Below, one piece after another: positions 47,989 through 58,818 of a stretch of 64,000 nucleotides of DNA (position 1 is the stretch's first letter; every line of letters begins with the position of its first letter). The stretch covers positions 3,038,001 through 3,102,000 of the forward strand of contig CM073197.1 in assembly GCA_037042915.1 (NCBI GenBank), given 5' to 3'. The notes beneath the pieces are model-generated. The model worked only from the letters and a program-made list of their open reading frames with translations. It searched no databases and was not told where the DNA came from. The position numbers were made by a program, and so were the translations under genes. This stretch comes from Auricularia sp. M13. Lineage: Eukaryota > Basidiomycota > Agaricomycetes > Auriculariales > Auriculariaceae.

Positions 47989-47997
47989 CAGTCAGCG
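47989..47997. repeat. Target-site duplication of the DNA element, left copy
   Basis: CAGTCAGCG, identical to 53506-53514. Because of base identity at the edge the true duplication may be 8 or 9 bases. Confidence 0.8.
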
Positions 47998-48007
47998 GGG
48001 GGTAGAG

Positions 48008-48045
48008 AAAGTGACGCGCAGAGACGCGCAGAGACGCGCAGAGCA
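48008..48045. repeat. Left terminal GACGCGCAGA array
   Basis: AAAGTGACGCGCA followed by three tandem GAGACGCGCA units. Mirror image of the right end (53455-53495). Confidence 0.85.
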
Positions 48046-48180
48046 TATCTCCCTCAAATCTTTACATAATCACACGATCCTTACCTCAATAGATAGCCAA
48101 TATTTTTCCAAATATTATAGTGATTTTAGCTGAGTTTTAAAGGCCCTAAATCCGGCAATGTTCGTTAATATGTCTAAATG

Positions 48181-48233
48181 TGCGCGTCACTCTTGCGCGT
48201 CACCGCGCATCTCCCTGCGCGTCATGCGCGTCT
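48181..48233. repeat. Left subterminal GCGCGTCAC array
   Basis: Four to five copies of GCGCGTCAC/GCGCGTC in 53 bases, in the orientation opposite to the left terminal array; likely transposase binding sites by analogy with other DNA elements. Confidence 0.75.
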
Positions 48234-49047
48234 GCCCCTGGGAGGTATGTAACTACATGAAATCATATTATAAGCCTGTAAGATGGCTTACTACACCAGA
48301 ATTGCCTCTTGGACAGTCACTGTCACACGTGAGTTGAATGCAAATGCACAATCTCAACTTCGAGCTCAGACCTTCTGGCTAACCTGCATCCAGACGCATA
48401 CAATGAGCTATGAAGGATGAGTTCCTAAGTGAGGCTTGTCATGCATTGGGAGGGAAGTGGTCTTGCAGTGTTTCTGTCCTATGAATGGCTGACCTTGAAT
48501 CTGAGTATAATTTCGAAGTCAGCTGTTTGCTCCTTGTCTTCCTACCACCACCATCGCTTCCCTGCTTCCACTCTACCTCAAACTTGTCACCCCTCAGGGT
48601 AAAATCACTTCGTGTGGTTTATCCTTAGTTGCTCTCATTTGAGAACGATTAAAAATCTTACTGTTCTCATTTGAGAGCGGTTAATCCTACACCTTGTGGA
48701 CCGGCTTCTGATTCGTGGCGCTCTGTGCTCATCCCAGATTTTGGTGATAGAGTACTATATTCCTGCTCCTGACTTTGCCTGTGTCTCTGTGCTGGGGACA
48801 GGTGGTAACCTTTGCAGCGCCTTGTTTAGGATACTACTGCGTATACTGGCAACAATCCTTGTCTGCACTCTCTGTTGGGCTCTGGTCTTGTGTCTCTGCT
48901 CTGTTAGCTTCTGTGTCTAGTATCTGGATACTGCTGTCTTTACTTTGTGGTTATGCTCGCTCCAGGAACCTGCTAATCGCTTTATTGATTCTGGTAATTA
49001 TCTCCTGTGGAGGTATCTATTAATCTGACCATATTATAGGTTCTGTG

Positions 49048-52000
49048 ATGTTTCTCTTCCAAAAGTTCTTCCCAAAAGCCAGATCTGAGCCACGTGGTAA
49101 GTAAAATCATGGACCCTTTGCTTTATATCTCAAACTTTTCCAGCTCCCATCACACCGGCGCCCAATCACTACGTCAACATAATTGATTCTGTTGGTAAGA
49201 GGTGGTCACCACCTTCTGAAATATATCATTCTTACACAAACAAGGGTCCTTAATTGCACAGCTTCCAGAGCAACAAGGTACGGAAATCGTGACATTTTCC
49301 CCAAGGTTATCTAAAGAGTCTCTAGTTATTCAGTTCCTCAAAACCAAAAGCCACTCCTTTACAGGCCTCTCATCTTGTAGGCTACATCAATGCCATTCTT
49401 ACAGATGTATTAATGCTTGCATAACAGCTATAGCAACCTACCCATCAGGTGGATTTGTGACGTGTGTCAATGCACTGGGTATGCCTCATTACTTCCTTTC
49501 AGACTCTTATTCATCTGTATCTTTGCAGGGCACTCCTTGGCTGTTCTCCCTCTCCTCGATGGTATATTTCATTAAGTTTTGAGTTGACTTTCGATTCACT
49601 TATGTGTATAATGTAGTGGATCGCTGCGTTCCCATGTACTCTCCCAATCCAAGAGCAAGGCACCCTCTGTATTATCTGGAAATCATCATGGGTCCCATAG
49701 TAAGATAGAATCCACTAGCATGTCTAATTCTAATGTCTACTTCCAGACTCCAAAGTGCCAATATCCAACAACATCTCCATTGTAGTTGGCCATCCACCGG
49801 CGCAAACACAAACTTTGGTTGCACCTTCACACGTCCATCCTGGTGCCAAATGGTCGGCCAACTCCTGCTGGCTGGACTCGTCCTCACATCTCCTATATTA
49901 TGCGTGTCTGCGTGACATGGACTACCTCTCACCACTCCTTGCGCTTTCTCCACCTGAGAGTCCCCTCTCAGTGCTTTTGAAGCTCTTCCAACTGCGCTCT
50001 GAAGTTCTTCAGAGTCCACTTCTGCCTTTATTACTCGCCAGCGTGATGGCCTTAGGCAAACACTTGTTGAGCATTCCACTGGTCAGGCTATCAAAGACAG
50101 AGCTCCAGGTGGCATGGACAGTCCATGGGTATGTTGAGTAATCTATTTTCCTTTAGGAGGTACTCATTATTTTGTAGTCATGGCTTTACGATCTAGCAAA
50201 CTACGAGCGTGCCAAGTTTCCTAAGACGTCAGGTCTAGCTGCATACTTTACAGTACAATCCCTGGTCTTTGCGCTTTGCGGTGACATTGTCAATCTCAGT
50301 GGTCTTACCTACAAGTCCTCTTATCGGTTTCAAAACGATGTGGACGGCTTCTTTACTCGCTTCCAAGGCAACATCACCAGCTGGTTCCATGAGGCCCTTA
50401 CCTGGAATTCACCTTCATCCTGCGCAGTCAATCAACATCCATTCCCAGAACGCTGTTCTACAACCCATCGCATCATCGTTGAACTGCCACATATACTTAT
50501 TCTGGATCTCGAAGAGCCAAACACAAAGCATGTTTGGTACTTCAGTACTCAAATCTACCCTTTGGGAGAGGATGTTGGTGTCTCCCATGGGCTTGTCTAC
50601 GACTTGATTGGATATCTTTCGGGTTCTGGTGACTCTGCAGCTCTCCACTATACTGCGACCTTTTCTTCACCTTCTGGTTCGGCCTATTACTATGACAGCA
50701 TGAGGAATAATGGGGATTCTGTTATCCTCAGCTCCATTCTAGATGACAACCACCTCTTGCATGCCTCAGAAGATCACAGAATTTGGTCAGCAGTATATCA
50801 CCTTCGAGGTGGCAAATCAGCCAGAGACTATTTCGCCGACCACCAGTCACAGTATGTCTTGCGCGAATTTGGCATACATCTTTCTCGCTCAGATGCATCA
50901 TCTCATACTGCTACGCTGGACCCCGACATCTGGAATCAGCCTTTACATGATCCCCAGTTGGATTGCGTTTATGGACATCGAAAGGTTGAACAAACCTCGA
51001 TTACTGTTCGTAGCAGCGCTACCCACAAAGCATGTTCACTTCGACGACTTGCACTGTCGCTGTGGAGCTCGTCAAACTTTGGCGAAGGATGGCCCCTTGG
51101 TTCACTGCATTACATGCAAGCATCCCTCTCACTTGGCTTGTCAACTCGGTGGATATGTTACGATCCTTGGGAAGGAGCAGGAGTTCAGATGCCACAAGTG
51201 CCTCAGTACTACTCACCGCCATACAGAAAGTTTGGCCAAGTGAGTGTCTTTACTGAATCATGAAATCCATCTGACTATAATGATCAGAGAACTCAAGAAG
51301 GCTATTCCATTGATGAAGGACTTGCCACTCATTCAGCGTCTTCAGTATGTGTTATAGTATTTCATTTTCTAAGTACTAAGCATATGATAGCCCAGGAATG
51401 GCCATCCTTGCAGCATATACAGTAGAAAGCGGGCTCAGCAAATACCACTATCCTGCTCGCCTGATATCCAAGGGAAAAGATGCAGCACATCGCTCAATAT
51501 GGCATGTTGTATGGTACCCATCCTCCAGATTTGAACCTCCTGGGTTCTTCCCCCCCTCGATTGTCCTAGAAGATCACATTGTGGACTGCCTATTTGGAAG
51601 ACAGGCTGAGAGACGTCAGATTCGCGTGAGTAAATATTTTCTATACTATTTCTCCACTAACAAGAATTGCCATAGCTTGGTCGATGGCTCCCTGCCAGCG
51701 AGGTGGAGGAAAGCAAACCTGATCAGAATTACCTTCGTCACCCACCCTCTCAGGAGATCAAGGATCTTCTGGAGCCCCACAGCGCTATTTTGCATGCTCT
51801 GTGCCATGGTGCATCTCAGGCTGAGAAATCGCTTCTCAAGTCTGCTCTACCTCCAGTGGCTTCATATCAGGCCAAGCACCGTGGCAAGCTTCCAGACTAT
51901 CCCTCTTATGGCACTTTGACTTCTATGGATGCGGCCCAGATCATGCATTGGCTGCGGCTCAATGTGTCTGACAATCCTGCTATCTTCATGAAGGCGCCAC

Positions 52001-52653
52001 TCTTCCACGCGATTAATCTGGTGCTTGCTTCACGCAATAGTCTATCAGTGGATGAGGCCTGGGACTCATATCAGATCCACGACAAAGGATTGGGGCGGCA
52101 GCAGAGTATTGATCTCGACGTGTTTGCTTTGGCTATTCTTGAACATCTAATGCTGGACCAGACAGCAGAACTTGGACTGTTTGCTTGTTCTCAGTGGGGG
52201 CGCGATGCTGGACATCACCAGCATCACTGGAACCCATATCTCTATGGTCCAACTGAGGGTAGAGAAGAAGAGGCTGGCTGGGATAGCCTGTCAACAGAGT
52301 ATGAGCTCGCTATGACAGTAGGTCTGAATAACTGCGATGAGTGGTAAATCTGATTTATTTTATAATTTAGAATGGGCCAAATTACAAGGAGGACTCTCCA
52401 AAACGTGATATGACTCCTGACATAACCCCTTTGGAACGCCAAATAACTCTCAAACGAAAGCAGTAAGTCATAATCACTCAAATGACACAACAAGGAACTA
52501 AATCATCAAAGGGAGTTCGATGCAGAGATGGAAGAGGAAGATCGGATGCAGGAGGCAAAGGCAAACATGGATGAGGCAAAGGAACCAGTCAAGAAGATGC
52601 CTAGAGTTTCTAGCATCCAAACACGTGCTACTAGAAGGAAATCTCGCAAATGA
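49048..52653 (+). CDS. USP-like cysteine protease with PHD-like finger, transposon-borne
   Basis: Intron-rich gene; exon borders partly unresolved. It probably starts MFLFQKFFPKARSEPR and, after an intron, APITPAPNHYVNIIDSV. A block at about 49830-49930 has SANSCWLDSSSHLLYYACL, like the catalytic Cys box of ubiquitin-specific proteases (C19). The block at 50340-50860 has RIIVELPHILILDL, YDLIGYLSGSGDSAALHYTA and SAYYYDSMRNNG, like the His box with its His and the following Asp. A Cys/His cluster at about 51050-51215 reads CRCGARQTLAKDGPLVHCIT, CKHPSHLACQL, RCHKC, a PHD-like finger. The C-terminal part has YTVESGLSKYHYPARLIS and ERRQIR to LGRWLPASEVEE, then a basic end TRATRRKSRK, stop 52651-52653. 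Predicted role: ubiquitin removal near chromatin (inference). Confidence in the fold is moderate. Confidence 0.6.
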
Positions 52654-52781
52654 TGCATCCCCTGCTGGCTCTAGACACTATTTCCATTTCAGATTCCACC
52701 TCCAAACACTAGTACATATCACCAGTTGATGAGTTAAATCTCCGTCTGATATTTATACATTTAATAGTTTTAACTCATATA

Positions 52782-52855
52782 CGCGTCTCTTGCGCGTCAC
52801 TGCGCGTCACTCTGAGCGACTTGGTCAGAGTGACGCGCGCAACAGACGCGTCTGC
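52782..52855. repeat. Right subterminal GCGCGTCACT array with perfect hairpin
   Basis: Contains ACGCGTCTC, two GCGCGTCAC copies and a perfect 14-base inverted repeat, GCGCGTCACTCTGA / TCAGAGTGACGCGC, separated by 9 bases (52802-52838). Confidence 0.85.
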
Positions 52856-53291
52856 ACAAATGCAACCCGTTCTGCTCAGAATCTCAAGGAATCAACAAAA
52901 TGTGTGTAGAAACAACTTGAAATGCCATATGGAAGAGTATAGACATAATGATATCGCCAGGGTGGTGGTAACTGTATTTACGACTGACTTTGAGATTTTG
53001 GACTGAGTCTCTAGGTGAATTCACCCTCTCACAAACTAGGGTAATTGTGCCAAATATGTGTACTGTGTAAATGGATTGTCACATGTGGATAGATTGACCC
53101 AGTAGTGACTGGTGGCAGTGTGTAGAAAGCTATTATTTACGAGTGTCACATATTGAGTATGCATTGTTTATTTGAGCAATAATTTCAATCGAAATAACAC
53201 GAAAAAGAGTATAGACTATGTCTTACCTTCCTTACACATGGCATTTGCTCCAAATGTCTGTATTTATTACAATCTGCAATGACATGCAGGG

Positions 53292-53310
53292 GACGCGCAA
53301 GAGACGCGCA
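53292..53310. repeat. GACGCGCAAGA pair inside the element
   Basis: Two tandem GACGCGCAAG units about 185 bases before the right end. Confidence 0.7.
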
Positions 53311-53454
53311 AGCCTTTTGGTACTATTACAACTTTGCCTGGTTAACTAAGACCCTGGGCTGATGGCACCTGCCCAATTGTTTTGGAGGCCTCAGTGGATA
53401 TGGTCCATGTTATCAGACCTCACAAGGGTTAGTATTGGGTACAAAATGGTGCTG

Positions 53455-53495
53455 CGCGTCTCGCGCGTCACTGCGCGTCACTTGCGCGTCACTTT
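53455..53495. repeat. Right terminal GCGCGTCACT array
   Basis: Four tandem units (GCGCGTCTC, GCGCGTCACT, GCGCGTCACTT, GCGCGTCACTTT), the inverted counterpart of the left terminal array. Confidence 0.85.
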
Positions 53496-53505
53496 ATATA
53501 GACCG

Positions 53506-53514
53506 CAGTCAGCG
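53506..53514. repeat. Target-site duplication of the DNA element, right copy
   Basis: CAGTCAGCG; together with 53515-53540 this is the small stretch of host exon left between the two transposons. Confidence 0.8.
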
Positions 53515-53540: not shown

Positions 53541-53851
53541 TGAGAAAGGTCACGAGGGCGACTGAGATAGCGCGTATAGCGCGGAAGGCTCAGTCGCGTG
53601 TGCAAAAGACAAGAGCGAACTAGTATATACCTGAGATAGCGCGTATAGCGCGGAAGGCTAAATACAGTGAGCATACGGAATACATGCGGTAGAATGGATG
53701 GAGTCTCACCTCAGTCGCGTGTGCAAAAGACAAGAGCGAACTGAGGTGGAGTACAAGCGAGGGCGCGTATATATGAGTCGAGAGCGCATAATAGAAGGAA
53801 ATGAAACTGAGGGTGGCACGAATGTGCCACTCGATGGTTCAAGTGCTGACA
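53541..53851 (-). repeat. 3' LTR of the Copia element
   Basis: 311 bases, matching 58508-58818 throughout by eye. Contains internal duplications: CTGAGATAGCGCG... at 53562-53590 and 53631-53659, and CTCAGTCGCGTG... at 53589-53621 and 53710-53742. The polyprotein stop codon lies inside this LTR. Confidence 0.97.
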
Positions 53852-56800
53852 CCCCCACTCGCACGAAGACGAAGACCCATTGCGCGGCAGAACTTGCGAT
53901 GCTTGTCCTCACAGAGCGCTTTGGTGAAGATGTCTGCGACCTGGTCGTGCGTTGAGACATAGCGTACGGCGGCGTGACCCTTGAGAACCAGATCATCGCG
54001 AATGAAATGGTATTTGCGGGCTATGTGCTTCGTTCGCGCGCGGAACTGCGGTTCCTTGCTGAGGATGATGGCGGCTTCGTTATCGCAGTTCAAGTCTGTC
54101 GGGCGCTGCTGCGGGTGGCCGAGCTCAGCGAAGAACGAACGCAGCCAGAGGAGATGTTGGCCGGCTGCGGTGAGACCGACGTATTCAGACTCGGTGGTGG
54201 ACAGGGCGACCATAGTTTGCCGTTTGCTAGACCAGGAGATCGCGCCGGCGTTGGTGATGAAGACATAGCCCGAGGTAGAGCGCGAGTTGTCGGGATCACC
54301 AGACCAGTCAGCGTCGGAGAACCCATGGAAGTCCATGTCGCAGTTCACGTCCGACCCCTCGAAGTGTAGAGCCATCAACGAAGTTCCACGCAGGTACCGG
54401 AGCACGCGCTTCGCAGCTTCCCAGTGGCAACGTTTCGGGTTCGCTGCGTAGCGGCCGAGTACCCCCACTGCAAAGGCAATGTCGGGGCGAGTGCCAAGCA
54501 TAGCGTACATGAGTGAGCCAACGACTTGCGGGTAAGAGACGACGCAGTTGGGGCTGATCTCGAAGCGGGGAAGGGTGGTGTTGTCGCGAGGATCGTCAAC
54601 GGAGAGCCGTACGTTGTGGTGCATCGGCGTAGTGTACGCGCGCGAGCTCTGCATGCCAAAACGGTTTAGCACGGTCTCAACGTACTGTTCCTGGTCAAGC
54701 GCGATGGTACGGGCTTTGCGGTCACGGGAGATGCGAATCCCTAGGACGCACGACGCGGGACCGAGATCTCGCATTTTGTAGAGTTTGCTGAGGCGGGCCT
54801 TGACAGAATCCAGGAAGGCGCGATCGGTTGCGGCTAGCAGTAGGTCGTCGACGTAGACCACCAGGAAACAGATCTTGCCGTTCTCGCGCAGAACGTAGAG
54901 GCAAGTCTCTGCATTCAAGCTGATGAATCCGAGGCCGGTGAGTGCCTTATCGAACGTCTTGTTCCATGTGCGTCCGGCCTGTTTGAGACCGTAGAGTGAA
55001 CGCTTCAGGCGCCAGCATTTGCCTGCGGGAACGTCAACGCCATCAGGAGGAAGGAGGTACAGCTCTTCGTCGAGCTGGCCATTGAGAAACGCCGTAGAGA
55101 CGTCCATCTGGTCCAGCTCGAGGTCGTACTTGGCTGCCAGAGCGCATATGACGCGGACGGAGTCGAGGTTTGCGACGGGAGCGAATGTTTCCTCGTAATC
55201 GACACCTTCTTTCTGGACGAAGCCGCGGGCTACGATGCGGCCTTTGTAGCGTTCGATGTTGCCGTTTGCGTCGTATTTGATGCGGAAGACAATCTTCGAA
55301 GTGATAGGCTTGACACCGTCAGGAATATCGACGAGTTCGTAGACATCGTTCTCTTGAAGCGACCGTAACTCCTCGTCGAGCGCAGCTTCCCATTTTGCAG
55401 CGTCAGGGCTGGCCCGGGCCTCGCGCATGTTGCGAGGGACAGCGTGCGGCTGTGGGCTGTCATTAGCAATGCCTGCGAAAAACTCGTCACTGTCTTCGCG
55501 CAGCTCGGACATAATGTCGGCGAGACCAGCGATCGCGTCGTCATCGAGCTCATGGTCGGGTACGTTGCGCTTCGCCTTCATGTCGTCAAGTCTTGCACGC
55601 CATTCACGTTGTGTGCGGTGTACGTCGCGTTCCGGGTCGGCCTGCTTGCGTTCGCGATCTGGATAGCGGCGCGCGGGTGGCGGATCGGGATTTGCGGCTT
55701 GTGGATCAGGTACCGGATTTGCGGGTGGCGGTGCAGCGGGAGCCGGAGGTGGCGGTGCAGCGGGAGCCGGAACGTCCAAATGGGGATTTTGCGCGCGCGG
55801 AGGAGGAGCGTCTTCATCGTCGACCTCTTCGACCCAGGCGCGTTGCGGAGCAGTCTTGCGGGCGTCTGCGGGCTGTTCAGCGGTTGGCGATACATCAGTG
55901 GCGAGGCGGAGGAGTTGATCCCCCCACTGCTCCGGCGATAATCGCTCTTCTGCGGGCGCAATCTTGAAACCGGCCATTTTGCTTTCGTCGAAGAGGACGT
56001 GATAGCCTGGTATGATCTTGCGCGTGTGCAGGTCGAACAGACGGTAGTCTTTGCTGAGCGGGTTGTGGCCGAGCATCACGCAGCGACGCGCTTTTCGTCC
56101 CATTTTCCAGTCGCGGTGCGGCTTGTCGATGAGCTTGTAGGCGAGGCAGCCGAAAGGGCGGAAACGAGAGACGTCTGGCTTTCGCTTGAACAGCACCTCG
56201 TACGGCGAGAGTCCGCTGGCCGATGAGGTCGGTCGTCGCGCAACAAGGTCGGTGGCGTACCGCACGGCTTCAACCCACAGCGACGGTGGGAGACCAGACT
56301 CGATGAGCACAGTGGTTGCGGTCGTGAGTATCGTCTGGTTCATACGCTCCGCGACACCGTTTTGCTGTGGAGTGTATGGCGAGGTCGTTTCGTGCTTGAC
56401 ACCATCGGTGGCGAGCTGAGCTTCGAAAGCTTTGGAGGTGAATTCACCGCCGTTATCGCTGCGCAAGAAGGCAACAAACTCTGGAGAAAGCTCGAGTTCG
56501 AGGAGCTCCTCCTTGAAGTAAGCTTCGACGTCCGCTTTCCACTGGCGGTACATGACGAGGGACTGGCTCTTGCGCTGCAGGAAAAGCGTCCAGGGGTGGC
56601 CCGAATAGTCGTCTGTGAACGTCATCGAGTAGAGTTCGCCTTTTGGCCCGGGGTGCTTCATCGGACCGACGAGATCGACGTGAACCAGCTGGAGAGGTCG
56701 AGTCGCGCGTTGACGTCCAGTGGGGAACGGCAGCTTCTTCATCTTGCCCATGATACAGTGCTCGCAGATCTCGGGCTTGCCGGAGAGTTTGCTAACACCT

Positions 56801-58401
56801 TCGACGCGTCCATCGTTGACCATGCGTTTGAGGGCGTCGAAATTCAGATGACCCATGCGACGATGCATCAGGTTAATCTCGACGGTCTTCCCTTTCTTCG
56901 GCGCCTTGACCTTGGCAGCGTGGGCGTGCGCATCGGTTTGGTCAGACTGCACGGTAGATAGCGGACGGGGGCATGCGTCGGTTGGGAATTGAAGCGCTGT
57001 GCCGTTGAGGTGGTACAGGCCACGTCGGGGATCGCCGTCGAGGATGCACTTGGTGCCTTTGAGGATTCTGCAGCGACCGCGGGCGAAACGAGACTCAAGT
57101 CCCTTCTCATCGAGTGAGCCGACTGATATCAGGGTGAGCTTGAAGCGTGGGACGAAGAGGACGCCCGAGATCGTGAGTTCGTAGGCTTGCTTCTTGACTA
57201 CGGTCCGCAGGACAATTTGGCCTTCGCCCAACGCCTCGGTGAATGAATTGTCGCCAAAGCGCACGCGTTTGGGTTTTTCGAACGCTTTGTACGACGATGG
57301 CTTGAACCAAGAGCGGTGCGGACAGATGGTCGCGGAGGCGCCGGTGTCCAGAATCGTGACTTGCGAAATCTGGCTTGCGTTCACAGCGTTTATGAGGATC
57401 TCACGATCAGGAAAATAGAGGGAAAGCTTCTTGATTTCGGAGGCCGAGAGCGTTACATGCGCCTCGTCGTCGTCGGAGCCTGCGTTCGTCTCGTCGTCGC
57501 TGGCTACGCGATGGGCAACGGCCTTATCCTTCTTCTTCCCGCCTCCCCCACTGCTTCCCGAACCCTTCTTGCTCGACTTGTGCGCAGCGACCGCGTTCTT
57601 GAGCTCCTTGCAGTCAGCGGTATCGTGGAAGCAGACGCCGTGGAAGGCGCAGTACTTGTCGCCCTTGCTGCGGCTGCCAGACGGCTTTGCAGACTTCTGG
57701 TTCGAGGGCGCGTGCACGTTGTTGGCCGATGCGTCGGTAGAGACGCGTAGAGCGCGTGAGAGCAGCGCGTTCTCGACTTGGGCGAAAGTCAGCGGGTTGG
57801 AGTCGGTGACGGGAGCAAGGAGCGGCGTCTGGAAGACCTCCCACTCGGGCGTGTCTGGGAGCGAGAGCAGCAAGATGAGAGCGCCGATCTGGTCCTTGAA
57901 CGGCGATTCGAGGTCTTGGAGTGTCTGGAGGACGTTGCGAACGCTGTTGACGTGCTCTTGCATCGGCGCGCCGTCCTCGTAACGAATGTTGAAGAGCTCC
58001 TTCAGCGCGCGGAAGATGCGAATAGCCTTGTTCGTCGTGAGATAACGGTCCTCGAGCGACTTGAGCAGCGTGCGGGCCGTGTAGCCGCGTTTGGTGATCG
58101 TGGACTGCACAATGCTGAGTGCGGAGCCGCCGAGGTGCTGCGCGACGAGGCTGGCGGCCTTCTTCGCCATAGTCTTGTGCTCGCGTATTTCAGCGTCACG
58201 GGCGATGACTTGCGCAGCGTTCTTGCCGTCAGAATCGAGCTTGATCGCGGCGGGCTCGGTCGGTTCTGGGTCGTGGAGGAAGTCATCGACGCCCAGTCTG
58301 AGAGCTTCGATCTCGACCTTCGTGCGCCAGAAGGAGTAGGTCTCCATGTCATTGAGGATGGGAACGCGTGTGAGAACGCCTGAGTCCGTGGTCGACGCCA
58401 T
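53839..58401 (-). CDS. Copia gag-pol polyprotein
   Basis: About 1,520 residues from MASTTDSGVLTRVPILND (58401); an in-frame ATG at 58503 would add 34 residues. Order: gag (YSFWRTKVEIEALRLGVDD; a Cys/His cluster CAFHGVCFHDTADC); aspartic protease TILDTGASATICP (about 57365-57327); GAG-pre-integrase zinc region MHRRMGHLNFDALKRM ... CEHCIMGK; integrase core with the D-D-E triad (LVHVDLVGPM; FLRSDNGGEF; QQNGVAERMN); a Pro-rich linker; reverse transcriptase RVT_2 with YVDDLLLA (about 54858-54835); and RNase H (SDADWSGDPDNSRSTSGYVF; ALSTTESEYVGL; CDNEAAI). The frame is unbroken and all catalytic residues I can check are present. Stop TGA 53839-53841 in the 3' LTR. Confidence 0.97.
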   Translation of the reverse strand: MASTTDSGVLTRVPILNDMETYSFWRTKVEIEALRLGVDDFLHDPEPTEPAAIKLDSDGKNAAQVIARDAEIREHKTMAKKAASLVAQHLGGSALSIVQSTITKRGYTARTLLKSLEDRYLTTNKAIRIFRALKELFNIRYEDGAPMQEHVNSVRNVLQTLQDLESPFKDQIGALILLLSLPDTPEWEVFQTPLLAPVTDSNPLTFAQVENALLSRALRVSTDASANNVHAPSNQKSAKPSGSRSKGDKYCAFHGVCFHDTADCKELKNAVAAHKSSKKGSGSSGGGGKKKDKAVAHRVASDDETNAGSDDDEAHVTLSASEIKKLSLYFPDREILINAVNASQISQVTILDTGASATICPHRSWFKPSSYKAFEKPKRVRFGDNSFTEALGEGQIVLRTVVKKQAYELTISGVLFVPRFKLTLISVGSLDEKGLESRFARGRCRILKGTKCILDGDPRRGLYHLNGTALQFPTDACPRPLSTVQSDQTDAHAHAAKVKAPKKGKTVEINLMHRRMGHLNFDALKRMVNDGRVEGVSKLSGKPEICEHCIMGKMKKLPFPTGRQRATRPLQLVHVDLVGPMKHPGPKGELYSMTFTDDYSGHPWTLFLQRKSQSLVMYRQWKADVEAYFKEELLELELSPEFVAFLRSDNGGEFTSKAFEAQLATDGVKHETTSPYTPQQNGVAERMNQTILTTATTVLIESGLPPSLWVEAVRYATDLVARRPTSSASGLSPYEVLFKRKPDVSRFRPFGCLAYKLIDKPHRDWKMGRKARRCVMLGHNPLSKDYRLFDLHTRKIIPGYHVLFDESKMAGFKIAPAEERLSPEQWGDQLLRLATDVSPTAEQPADARKTAPQRAWVEEVDDEDAPPPRAQNPHLDVPAPAAPPPPAPAAPPPANPVPDPQAANPDPPPARRYPDRERKQADPERDVHRTQREWRARLDDMKAKRNVPDHELDDDAIAGLADIMSELREDSDEFFAGIANDSPQPHAVPRNMREARASPDAAKWEAALDEELRSLQENDVYELVDIPDGVKPITSKIVFRIKYDANGNIERYKGRIVARGFVQKEGVDYEETFAPVANLDSVRVICALAAKYDLELDQMDVSTAFLNGQLDEELYLLPPDGVDVPAGKCWRLKRSLYGLKQAGRTWNKTFDKALTGLGFISLNAETCLYVLRENGKICFLVVYVDDLLLAATDRAFLDSVKARLSKLYKMRDLGPASCVLGIRISRDRKARTIALDQEQYVETVLNRFGMQSSRAYTTPMHHNVRLSVDDPRDNTTLPRFEISPNCVVSYPQVVGSLMYAMLGTRPDIAFAVGVLGRYAANPKRCHWEAAKRVLRYLRGTSLMALHFEGSDVNCDMDFHGFSDADWSGDPDNSRSTSGYVFITNAGAISWSSKRQTMVALSTTESEYVGLTAAGQHLLWLRSFFAELGHPQQRPTDLNCDNEAAIILSKEPQFRARTKHIARKYHFIRDDLVLKGHAAVRYVSTHDQVADIFTKALCEDKHRKFCRAMGLRLRASGGVST
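53852..53860 (-). other. Polypurine tract of the Copia element
   Basis: GAGTGGGGG on the minus strand directly before the 3' LTR; site of plus-strand priming. Confidence 0.7.
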
Positions 58402-58494
58402 GGCAGTCAGAGGCAATGGAGTCTGGGACAAAGGATGGCGGAGTTCGAAAACGCGTTTGAATGCAAGCACGAGCGGGGTGTCAGTGGCAACTGA

Positions 58495-58507
58495 CGGGCT
58501 CATAACC
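58495..58507 (-). other. Primer-binding site, half-tRNA type
   Basis: GGTTATGAGCCCG directly after the 5' LTR on the minus strand. It is complementary to the anticodon stem-loop of initiator tRNA-Met (GGGCTCATAACC), not to a tRNA 3' end, as in Drosophila copia, which primes from a cleaved half tRNA. Confidence 0.7.
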
Positions 58508-58818
58508 TGAGAAAGGTCACGAGGGCGACTGAGATAGCGCGTATAGCGCGGAAGGCTCAGTCGCGTGTGCAAAAGACAAGAGCGAACTAGTATATACCTG
58601 AGATAGCGCGTATAGCGCGGAAGGCTAAATACAGTGAGCATACGGAATACATGCGGTAGAATGGATGGAGTCTCACCTCAGTCGCGTGTGCAAAAGACAA
58701 GAGCGAACTGAGGTGGAGTACAAGCGAGGGCGCGTATATATGAGTCGAGAGCGCATAATAGAAGGAAATGAAACTGAGGGTGGCACGAATGTGCCACTCG
58801 ATGGTTCAAGTGCTGACA
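58508..58818 (-). repeat. 5' LTR of the Copia element
   Basis: 311 bases, matching the 3' LTR. It should carry the element's promoter; no separate TATA box was assigned. Confidence 0.97.

Follow-up and report, generated by a model that had tools for sequence, protein, structure and literature searches.

A MULE-like transposon of Auricularia with a putative USP-like protease and a PHD-like finger on its transposase chain

On balance, we interpret the DNA element found in the stretch of 64,000 nucleotides of Auricularia sp. M13 analysed here (the window) as a member of a family of fungal MULE-like cut-and-paste transposons in which a transposase, a USP-like protease, a PHD-like finger and a C-terminal region are made as a single chain with a putative deconjugating role. 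A first-pass annotation had postulated a transposon-borne deubiquitinase-like protein joined to a PHD-like finger; since it had one copy to work from, it could see neither the fusion to a transposase nor that this copy is broken. The 5.5-kb DNA element that it had mentioned was borne out by imperfect inverted ends and by a 9-bp target-site duplication, CAGTCAGCG, on both flanks:

47989..47997, no strand: left target-site duplication, 9 bp, same letters as the right one
47998..53505, plus strand: whole element, an internally deleted MULE-like transposon of 5508 bp, defined by its ends, the 9-bp duplication and copy comparison
47998..48019, plus strand: left terminal inverted repeat, imperfect
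53452..53494, no strand: GCGCGTCAC array adjoining the right end, with related units at 48013-48043 adjoining the left end
53484..53505, minus strand: right terminal inverted repeat, imperfect
53506..53514, no strand: right target-site duplication, 9 bp, same letters as the left one

Searches for these ends over the whole genome (52.1 Mb, 14 contigs), with up to three mismatches allowed, returned six left and seven right ends, all without mismatch, which amounts to seven copies. Both ends were recovered in six of them (window, C9:3.30 Mb, C7, C6, C9:0.11 Mb and C3), each flanked by a perfect 9-bp duplication different from all the others, and the left end of the C4 copy was not found at this tolerance. 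The combination of a 9-bp duplication with inverted ends, which serves as criterion for MULEs, is thus present in every copy with both ends, and duplications of this length agree with those given for Mutator-like elements in the relevant part of PMC6446971. The first-pass annotation had asked whether orthologues would occur only at fixed syntenic loci devoid of element ends; the six different duplications answer this question and, together with the open frame kept in three copies (see below), rule out a host gene at a fixed locus. When the flanks of the window element are joined, an open reading frame on the minus strand (...SHNVWMDIQYTLTVPAQPPASVTTGPW...) spans the insertion point (47989-47997/53506-53514), so that the insertion may have split an exon of the host; the four ORFs neighbouring the insertion gave no Pfam match at E <= 0.01. 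A Copia-type retrotransposon with an open frame of 1,612 codons (RVT_2, E = 1.3e-67) lies beside the element on the minus strand, at 53839-58677.

The protease region occurs in five copies (window, C6, C9, C7 and C4) that are 98-100% identical at the DNA level. Three of these, C9, C7 and C4, hold 2,266 bp of extra DNA between window positions 49837 and 49838 that are absent from the window and C6 copies, and the window element is therefore a deletion derivative, the remnant of a transposase gene. Besides the 2,266-bp deletion, the window and C6 copies have a 10-bp deletion in common, and they differ at only 2 of 3665 aligned positions over 49838-53505. These common lesions, found between different target-site duplications, indicate that it was the broken form that transposed, presumably by means of a transposase made elsewhere. 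The C6 copy has in addition a 19.3-kb insertion inside the element near the deletion junction (C6:3688643-3707950; L009, L011, L010), and one ORF out of the five long ones scanned there contains a CxC2 cluster (E = 6.4e-34) of the kind associated with KDZ transposases. Two short copies of 4.3 and 4.1 kb (L016, C9:0.11 Mb, and L017, C3:2.60 Mb) retain both ends and 9-bp duplications but have unrelated DNA where the transposase-protease coding middle would be; the stretches that match between the two show 97.5-99.6% identity.

The gene model was established on the C9 copy, where ten exons (B to K), separated by introns of 46-53 bp with GT/AG borders, make a single open frame that extends from a point ahead of the transposase to the stop equivalent to window position 52653. 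The spliced frame of 4,746 bases including the stop (1,581 codons) is open and gap-free in 3/3 copies (C9, C7 and C4), with all splice sites kept. The order of modules in these intact copies is GCM-like region and transposase, Cys box, His/Asp box, PHD-like finger and conserved C-terminus. No consistent model of coding exons was found upstream of exon B (49048-49746). In the window copy the features are as follows:

49048..49746, plus strand: 5' part of the gene, with an ATG at 49048 and N-terminal similarity to the C11 lineage
49747..49837, plus strand: start of exon B, upstream of the transposase
49837..49838, no strand: junction of the 2,266-bp deletion (GCM-like region and transposase lost); the DNA is present in C9, C7 and C4
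49838..50128, plus strand: exon E with the Cys box, Cys codon 49866-49868, and the 10-bp frameshifting deletion near 50016
50178..51239, plus strand: exon F with the rest of the protease domain, His of ALHYTA at 50646-50648, Asp of YYYDSM at 50694-50696, and a 2-bp deletion near 51015
51055..51201, plus strand: PHD-like C4HC3 cluster inside exon F (Pfam PHD, E = 0.0089, 16.5 bits, cut-off 24)
51288..51344, plus strand: exon G
51391..51625, plus strand: exon H, C-terminal region, resembling L029 (59% over the aligned exons)
51676..52317, plus strand: exon I, C-terminal region
52371..52462, plus strand: exon J, with a similar stretch in L053
52512..52653, plus strand: exon K with the stop

All the sequence marks picked out by the first-pass annotation were located here, namely the Cys box, ALHYTA, YYYDSM, a Cys/His cluster of PHD spacing and a conserved C-terminal part ending at 52653. 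Its suggestion that the element itself makes a stand-alone protease-PHD protein shielding it from silencing could appeal to the deletion junction, across which exon B reads on in frame to the Cys box within one ORF (49734-50141). The 10-bp deletion in common with C6, however, shifts the His box into another frame than the Cys box, and the 2-bp deletion, present in the window only, lies ahead of the PHD-like cluster. Near 49622 the window also lacks a single base relative to C9, C7 and C4. Because the transposase is lost and a frameshift separates the Cys and His boxes, the window and C6 copies should not make the proposed protein; the claim of one working protease-PHD protein had to be abandoned for this copy, whose motifs are split over frames, and we consider the stand-alone protein extremely improbable.

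The three complete copies have kept the frame under selection. Comparison of three modules in the three pairs of C9, C7 and C4 gave nine non-independent dN/dS values (Nei-Gojobori) of 0.06-0.36. Over the whole frame, nonsynonymous changes made up 13/35, 13/33 and 16/34 in the three pairs, which departs from neutrality with P = 7.6e-7, 5.5e-6 and 1.9e-4, respectively. For the protease and PHD exons taken alone, the departure was found for C9-C7 (P = 0.007) and C9-C4 (P = 0.009), and neutrality was not rejected for C7-C4 (P = 0.09).

Conserved blocks in the extra 2,266 bp suggest that this DNA encodes a DDE, MULE-like transposase. An SDA-H block is conserved in 3/3 aligned sequences, MDFS and NNAxES in both of the sequences that cover them, and TTNAEES is read in the divergent lineage L029. 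Cys and His ligands also occur in a region encoded by the same DNA; GCM matches it weakly in 2/3 transposase sequences, with E = 0.08 in C9 and 0.018 at best in another one, short of the cut-off; in one sequence an unlikely type-IV secretion family outscored GCM (E = 0.0076). Scans of the transposase sequences returned no match to Pfam MULE, DDE or other transposase families, nor to KDZ or CxC domains.

Two divergent lineages in the same genome bear on the nature of the protease domain. The first (L029, C6:1.50-1.51 Mb) has the same order of modules, including the PHD-like cluster and the C-terminus, in a degenerate copy whose pieces lie in several frames with about 4 kb of other DNA inside; the second (L031, C11:1.08 Mb) has transposase and protease, and inspection of its frames by eye revealed no PHD-like cluster. 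Their protease sequences are 31% and 28% identical to that of C9, respectively. In all three lineages the catalytic-type Cys, His and Asp are invariant, as are the W, N, S and D of the Cys box and three further Cys, and the order Cys-His-Asp is kept with a spacing of 16 between His and Asp. This invariance of the triad, along with the frame maintained in three full copies, places the motifs first noticed in the window beyond chance resemblance. In Peptidase C19 (USP), Asp lies some 16-17 residues behind His (17 in USP7), and the order and spacing seen here agree with this. With Cys coming first, the order is unlike that of Ulp1 (Peptidase C48), which is His - Asp - Cys. The Cys box reads NSCWLD in two lineages and NSCAWD in the third (C11), and is thus not of the GNTCY type; the boxes KWSANSCWLD and RWYRNSCWLD are close to that of USPL1, WKNAYALCWLDC (PDB 7p99, 7zju). 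The residue following His makes a His-Phe pair, as in USPL1, in one lineage and His-Tyr, as in ubiquitin USPs, in the other two, so that a change of substrate in the course of the lineage's evolution is conceivable. A C2 copy (L033) is 97% identical to L031, and both carry a transposase-protease gene with CAWD, not CWLD, the C11 member having a different C-terminus. In this related lineage, which also takes in partial relatives (L032, L034, L035, L036 and C8:1660k), part of the 5' region is shared at 84-90% identity. No confirmed relative was found in viral and genome contig collections, which are not meant for fungi.

Neither of the profiles against which the first-pass annotation had proposed to check the protein, peptidase C19 and PHD, reached its cut-off (UCH, 10.9 vs 23.9 bits; PHD, 16.5 vs 24 bits). 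UCH was nevertheless the sole Pfam family on the protease sequences at E <= 10, matching one of the three with E = 0.35, equivalent to about 1.4e-5 for one family named in advance (0.35/24,736); the match covers residues 198-281, including the His box (His at 270), and no UCH match appeared when the exons were scanned apart. OTU, Ulp1 and C98 gave no Pfam match on the protease sequences at E <= 10 in searches whose HMMER filters drop most weak matches, C98 was likewise absent at E <= 10 from the genome scan, and these three identities were dropped. VTD was also discarded, its Asp-x-His motif, as given in the relevant section of PMC9741609, being unmatched by the motifs here. An hhalign comparison with three true USPs (one from the host, two from PDB) was not significant (0.1% probability). 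A profile made of three USP sequences aligned its own GHY to the LHY of the protease sequences; it scored as high or higher on 8/300 shuffles for C9 and 78/300 for L029, and did not report the L031 sequence. CxxC pairs occur in 0/3 protease sequences, so no four-Cys finger site of the USP or USPL1 type was seen, and a single-sequence fold prediction of the read-through window protein had a pLDDT of 36.8. In view of the sub-threshold UCH match, the hhalign and shuffling results, the lack of CxxC pairs and the low pLDDT, we describe the domain as probably acting in the manner of a USP or USPL1 and assign it to neither group.

The same results allow other readings of the domain. Chance motifs in an unrelated accessory region of the transposase would account for the failure of every search to pass its cut-off and for the non-significant comparison with true USPs, but they would hardly produce the Cys-His-Asp order with a spacing of 16 in three lineages, a UCH match covering the His box and a USP profile laying its GHY on LHY, and we hold this explanation to be improbable. 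A catalytically dead papain-like module retained only for binding would likewise fit the low profile scores, the change of CWLD to CAWD in the third lineage and the lack of CxxC finger pairs; the retention of Cys, His and Asp in all three lineages at 28-31% identity argues against it, and it seems to us unlikely. Recent capture of a host USP as cargo is unlikely too, as the one host USP read has a GNTCYLN box and the domain is common to three diverged element lineages. Accordingly, of the original proposal of a USP-like protease and a PHD-like finger on a DNA transposon, motif conservation, selection and element structure speak in favour, whereas no profile places either domain above its cut-off.

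All eight C4HC3 ligands of the PHD-like cluster are present in the window, C9 and L029, with the spacing C-x-C, C-x2-C (C-x4-C in L029), H-x2-C and C-x2-C. The match of the window ORF covers positions 4-47 of the 47 of Pfam PHD; C9 (E = 0.045, 14.2 bits) and L029 (E = 0.31, 11.5 bits) also match below the cut-off of 24. The C-terminal region that follows is the most similar part of C9 and L029 and has no credible Pfam family, with one match at chance level (E = 0.13). A genome search with this region gave 22 matches, the weakest with E = 0.07, of which five belong to the full-family copies, two to the L029 locus and 15 to 14 other places. These extra matches suggested an independent module, but at the one place read among the 14, L053, nothing of the coding part is left except its 3' end, and 566 bases there match L029 at 95% identity; this locus thus looks like a deletion derivative of the L029 lineage.

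Taken together, the chain of the intact copies would begin with a GCM-like zinc region and a DDE nuclease, continue with a USP-like Cys-His-Asp protease, most like USPL1, and end with the PHD-like finger and the C-terminal region. In this reading the protease would strip ubiquitin or SUMO off the transposase or, at the donor or target site, off proteins of chromatin or repair. The PHD-like finger would help to position the protein on chromatin, and deconjugation would stabilise or un-silence the transposition complex. The window copy would be a frameshifted derivative that is non-autonomous and presumably relies for its movement on transposase supplied from elsewhere. As judged from sequence, protease activity and a substrate of this kind are predicted, and the effect would be either to stabilise the transposase or to alter chromatin or repair at the site. 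The presence of all modules in one open frame could also mean that the protease acts not on ubiquitin or SUMO but on its own chain, which it would cut so as to separate the transposase from the PHD-like finger and the C-terminal portion. Polyprotein processing is known from other elements. However, the enzymes of the USP group, to which the Cys box, the spacing of His and Asp and the weak UCH match all point, cleave behind ubiquitin-like C-termini, and we regard self-processing as improbable. We retain the deconjugating transposase as the preferred interpretation.

Several known systems come close to the one described here. USPL1 is a SUMO protease of the USP fold with 14-16% identity to two USPs and a triad of Cys236-His456-Asp472, that is, with a spacing of 16 (parts of PMC8983731); the fungal domain resembles it in the CWLD Cys box, in this His-Asp spacing and in its low similarity to other USPs. 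USPL1 is, however, a human host protein in which, as in USPs, four Cys hold zinc in the fingers (same parts of PMC8983731), whereas the fungal sequences have no such site and no Pfam C98 match. Among transposons, the sections concerned of PMC2836005 describe Ginger1 transposases with a C-terminal Ulp1, Ginger1-9_HM with Ulp1 and PHD, and Mutator elements with Ulp1, all of which, like the present family, join a transposase to a ubiquitin/SUMO-type cysteine protease, with a PHD besides in Ginger1-9_HM; there, the proteases are of the Ulp1 or OTU type, the hosts named are animals and plants, and the Ginger1 transposase is integrase-like. The same source gives a Trichomonas vaginalis protein with transposase_11 and Peptidase C19, which is alike in combining a transposase with a USP-type domain and differs in transposase class and in its protist host, PHD not being mentioned in that section. 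Transposases with Ulp1 and PHD, and with Peptidase C19, are thus already described, and the parallel is closer than the plant Kaonashi elements cited by the first-pass annotation. As judged from motifs, the difference would lie in the pairing of a fungal MULE-like transposase with a USP/USPL1-like enzyme and, behind it, a PHD-like finger. The open-licence literature, which leaves most subscription papers outside, yielded no description of a fungal protein uniting a transposase with PHD and a USP-like domain, and absence is not proven by this. The Rehavkus and MULE groups of PMC6446971 are alike in their 9-bp duplications and single gene; Rehavkus comes from arthropods and annelids, and the terms ubiquitin, protease, peptidase and Ulp1 are absent from the main text of that paper. 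As for function, Helitron-borne VTD and OTU are deubiquitinases proposed, in the relevant part of PMC9741609, to protect proteins needed for transposition, and the functions put forward for the Ulp1 and OTU of Ginger1 are comparable (PMC2836005, section concerned); the Asp-x-His arrangement of VTD differs from the fungal domain, where Asp comes 16 residues after His. It is tempting, if tentative, to go further and suppose that a fungal transposon joined transposase and PHD-like finger with a USPL1-like SUMO/ubiquitin-cutting enzyme, as a convergent swap for the Ulp1 of animal and plant elements; local deSUMOylation or deubiquitination would then be a working step of transposition. With Ulp1, OTU, VTD and now a USP-like domain, such domains turn up repeatedly in unrelated transposons, and intact, selected copies of a single-chain fusion make it possible to examine directly whether ubiquitin or SUMO must be removed for transposition or for escape from silencing.
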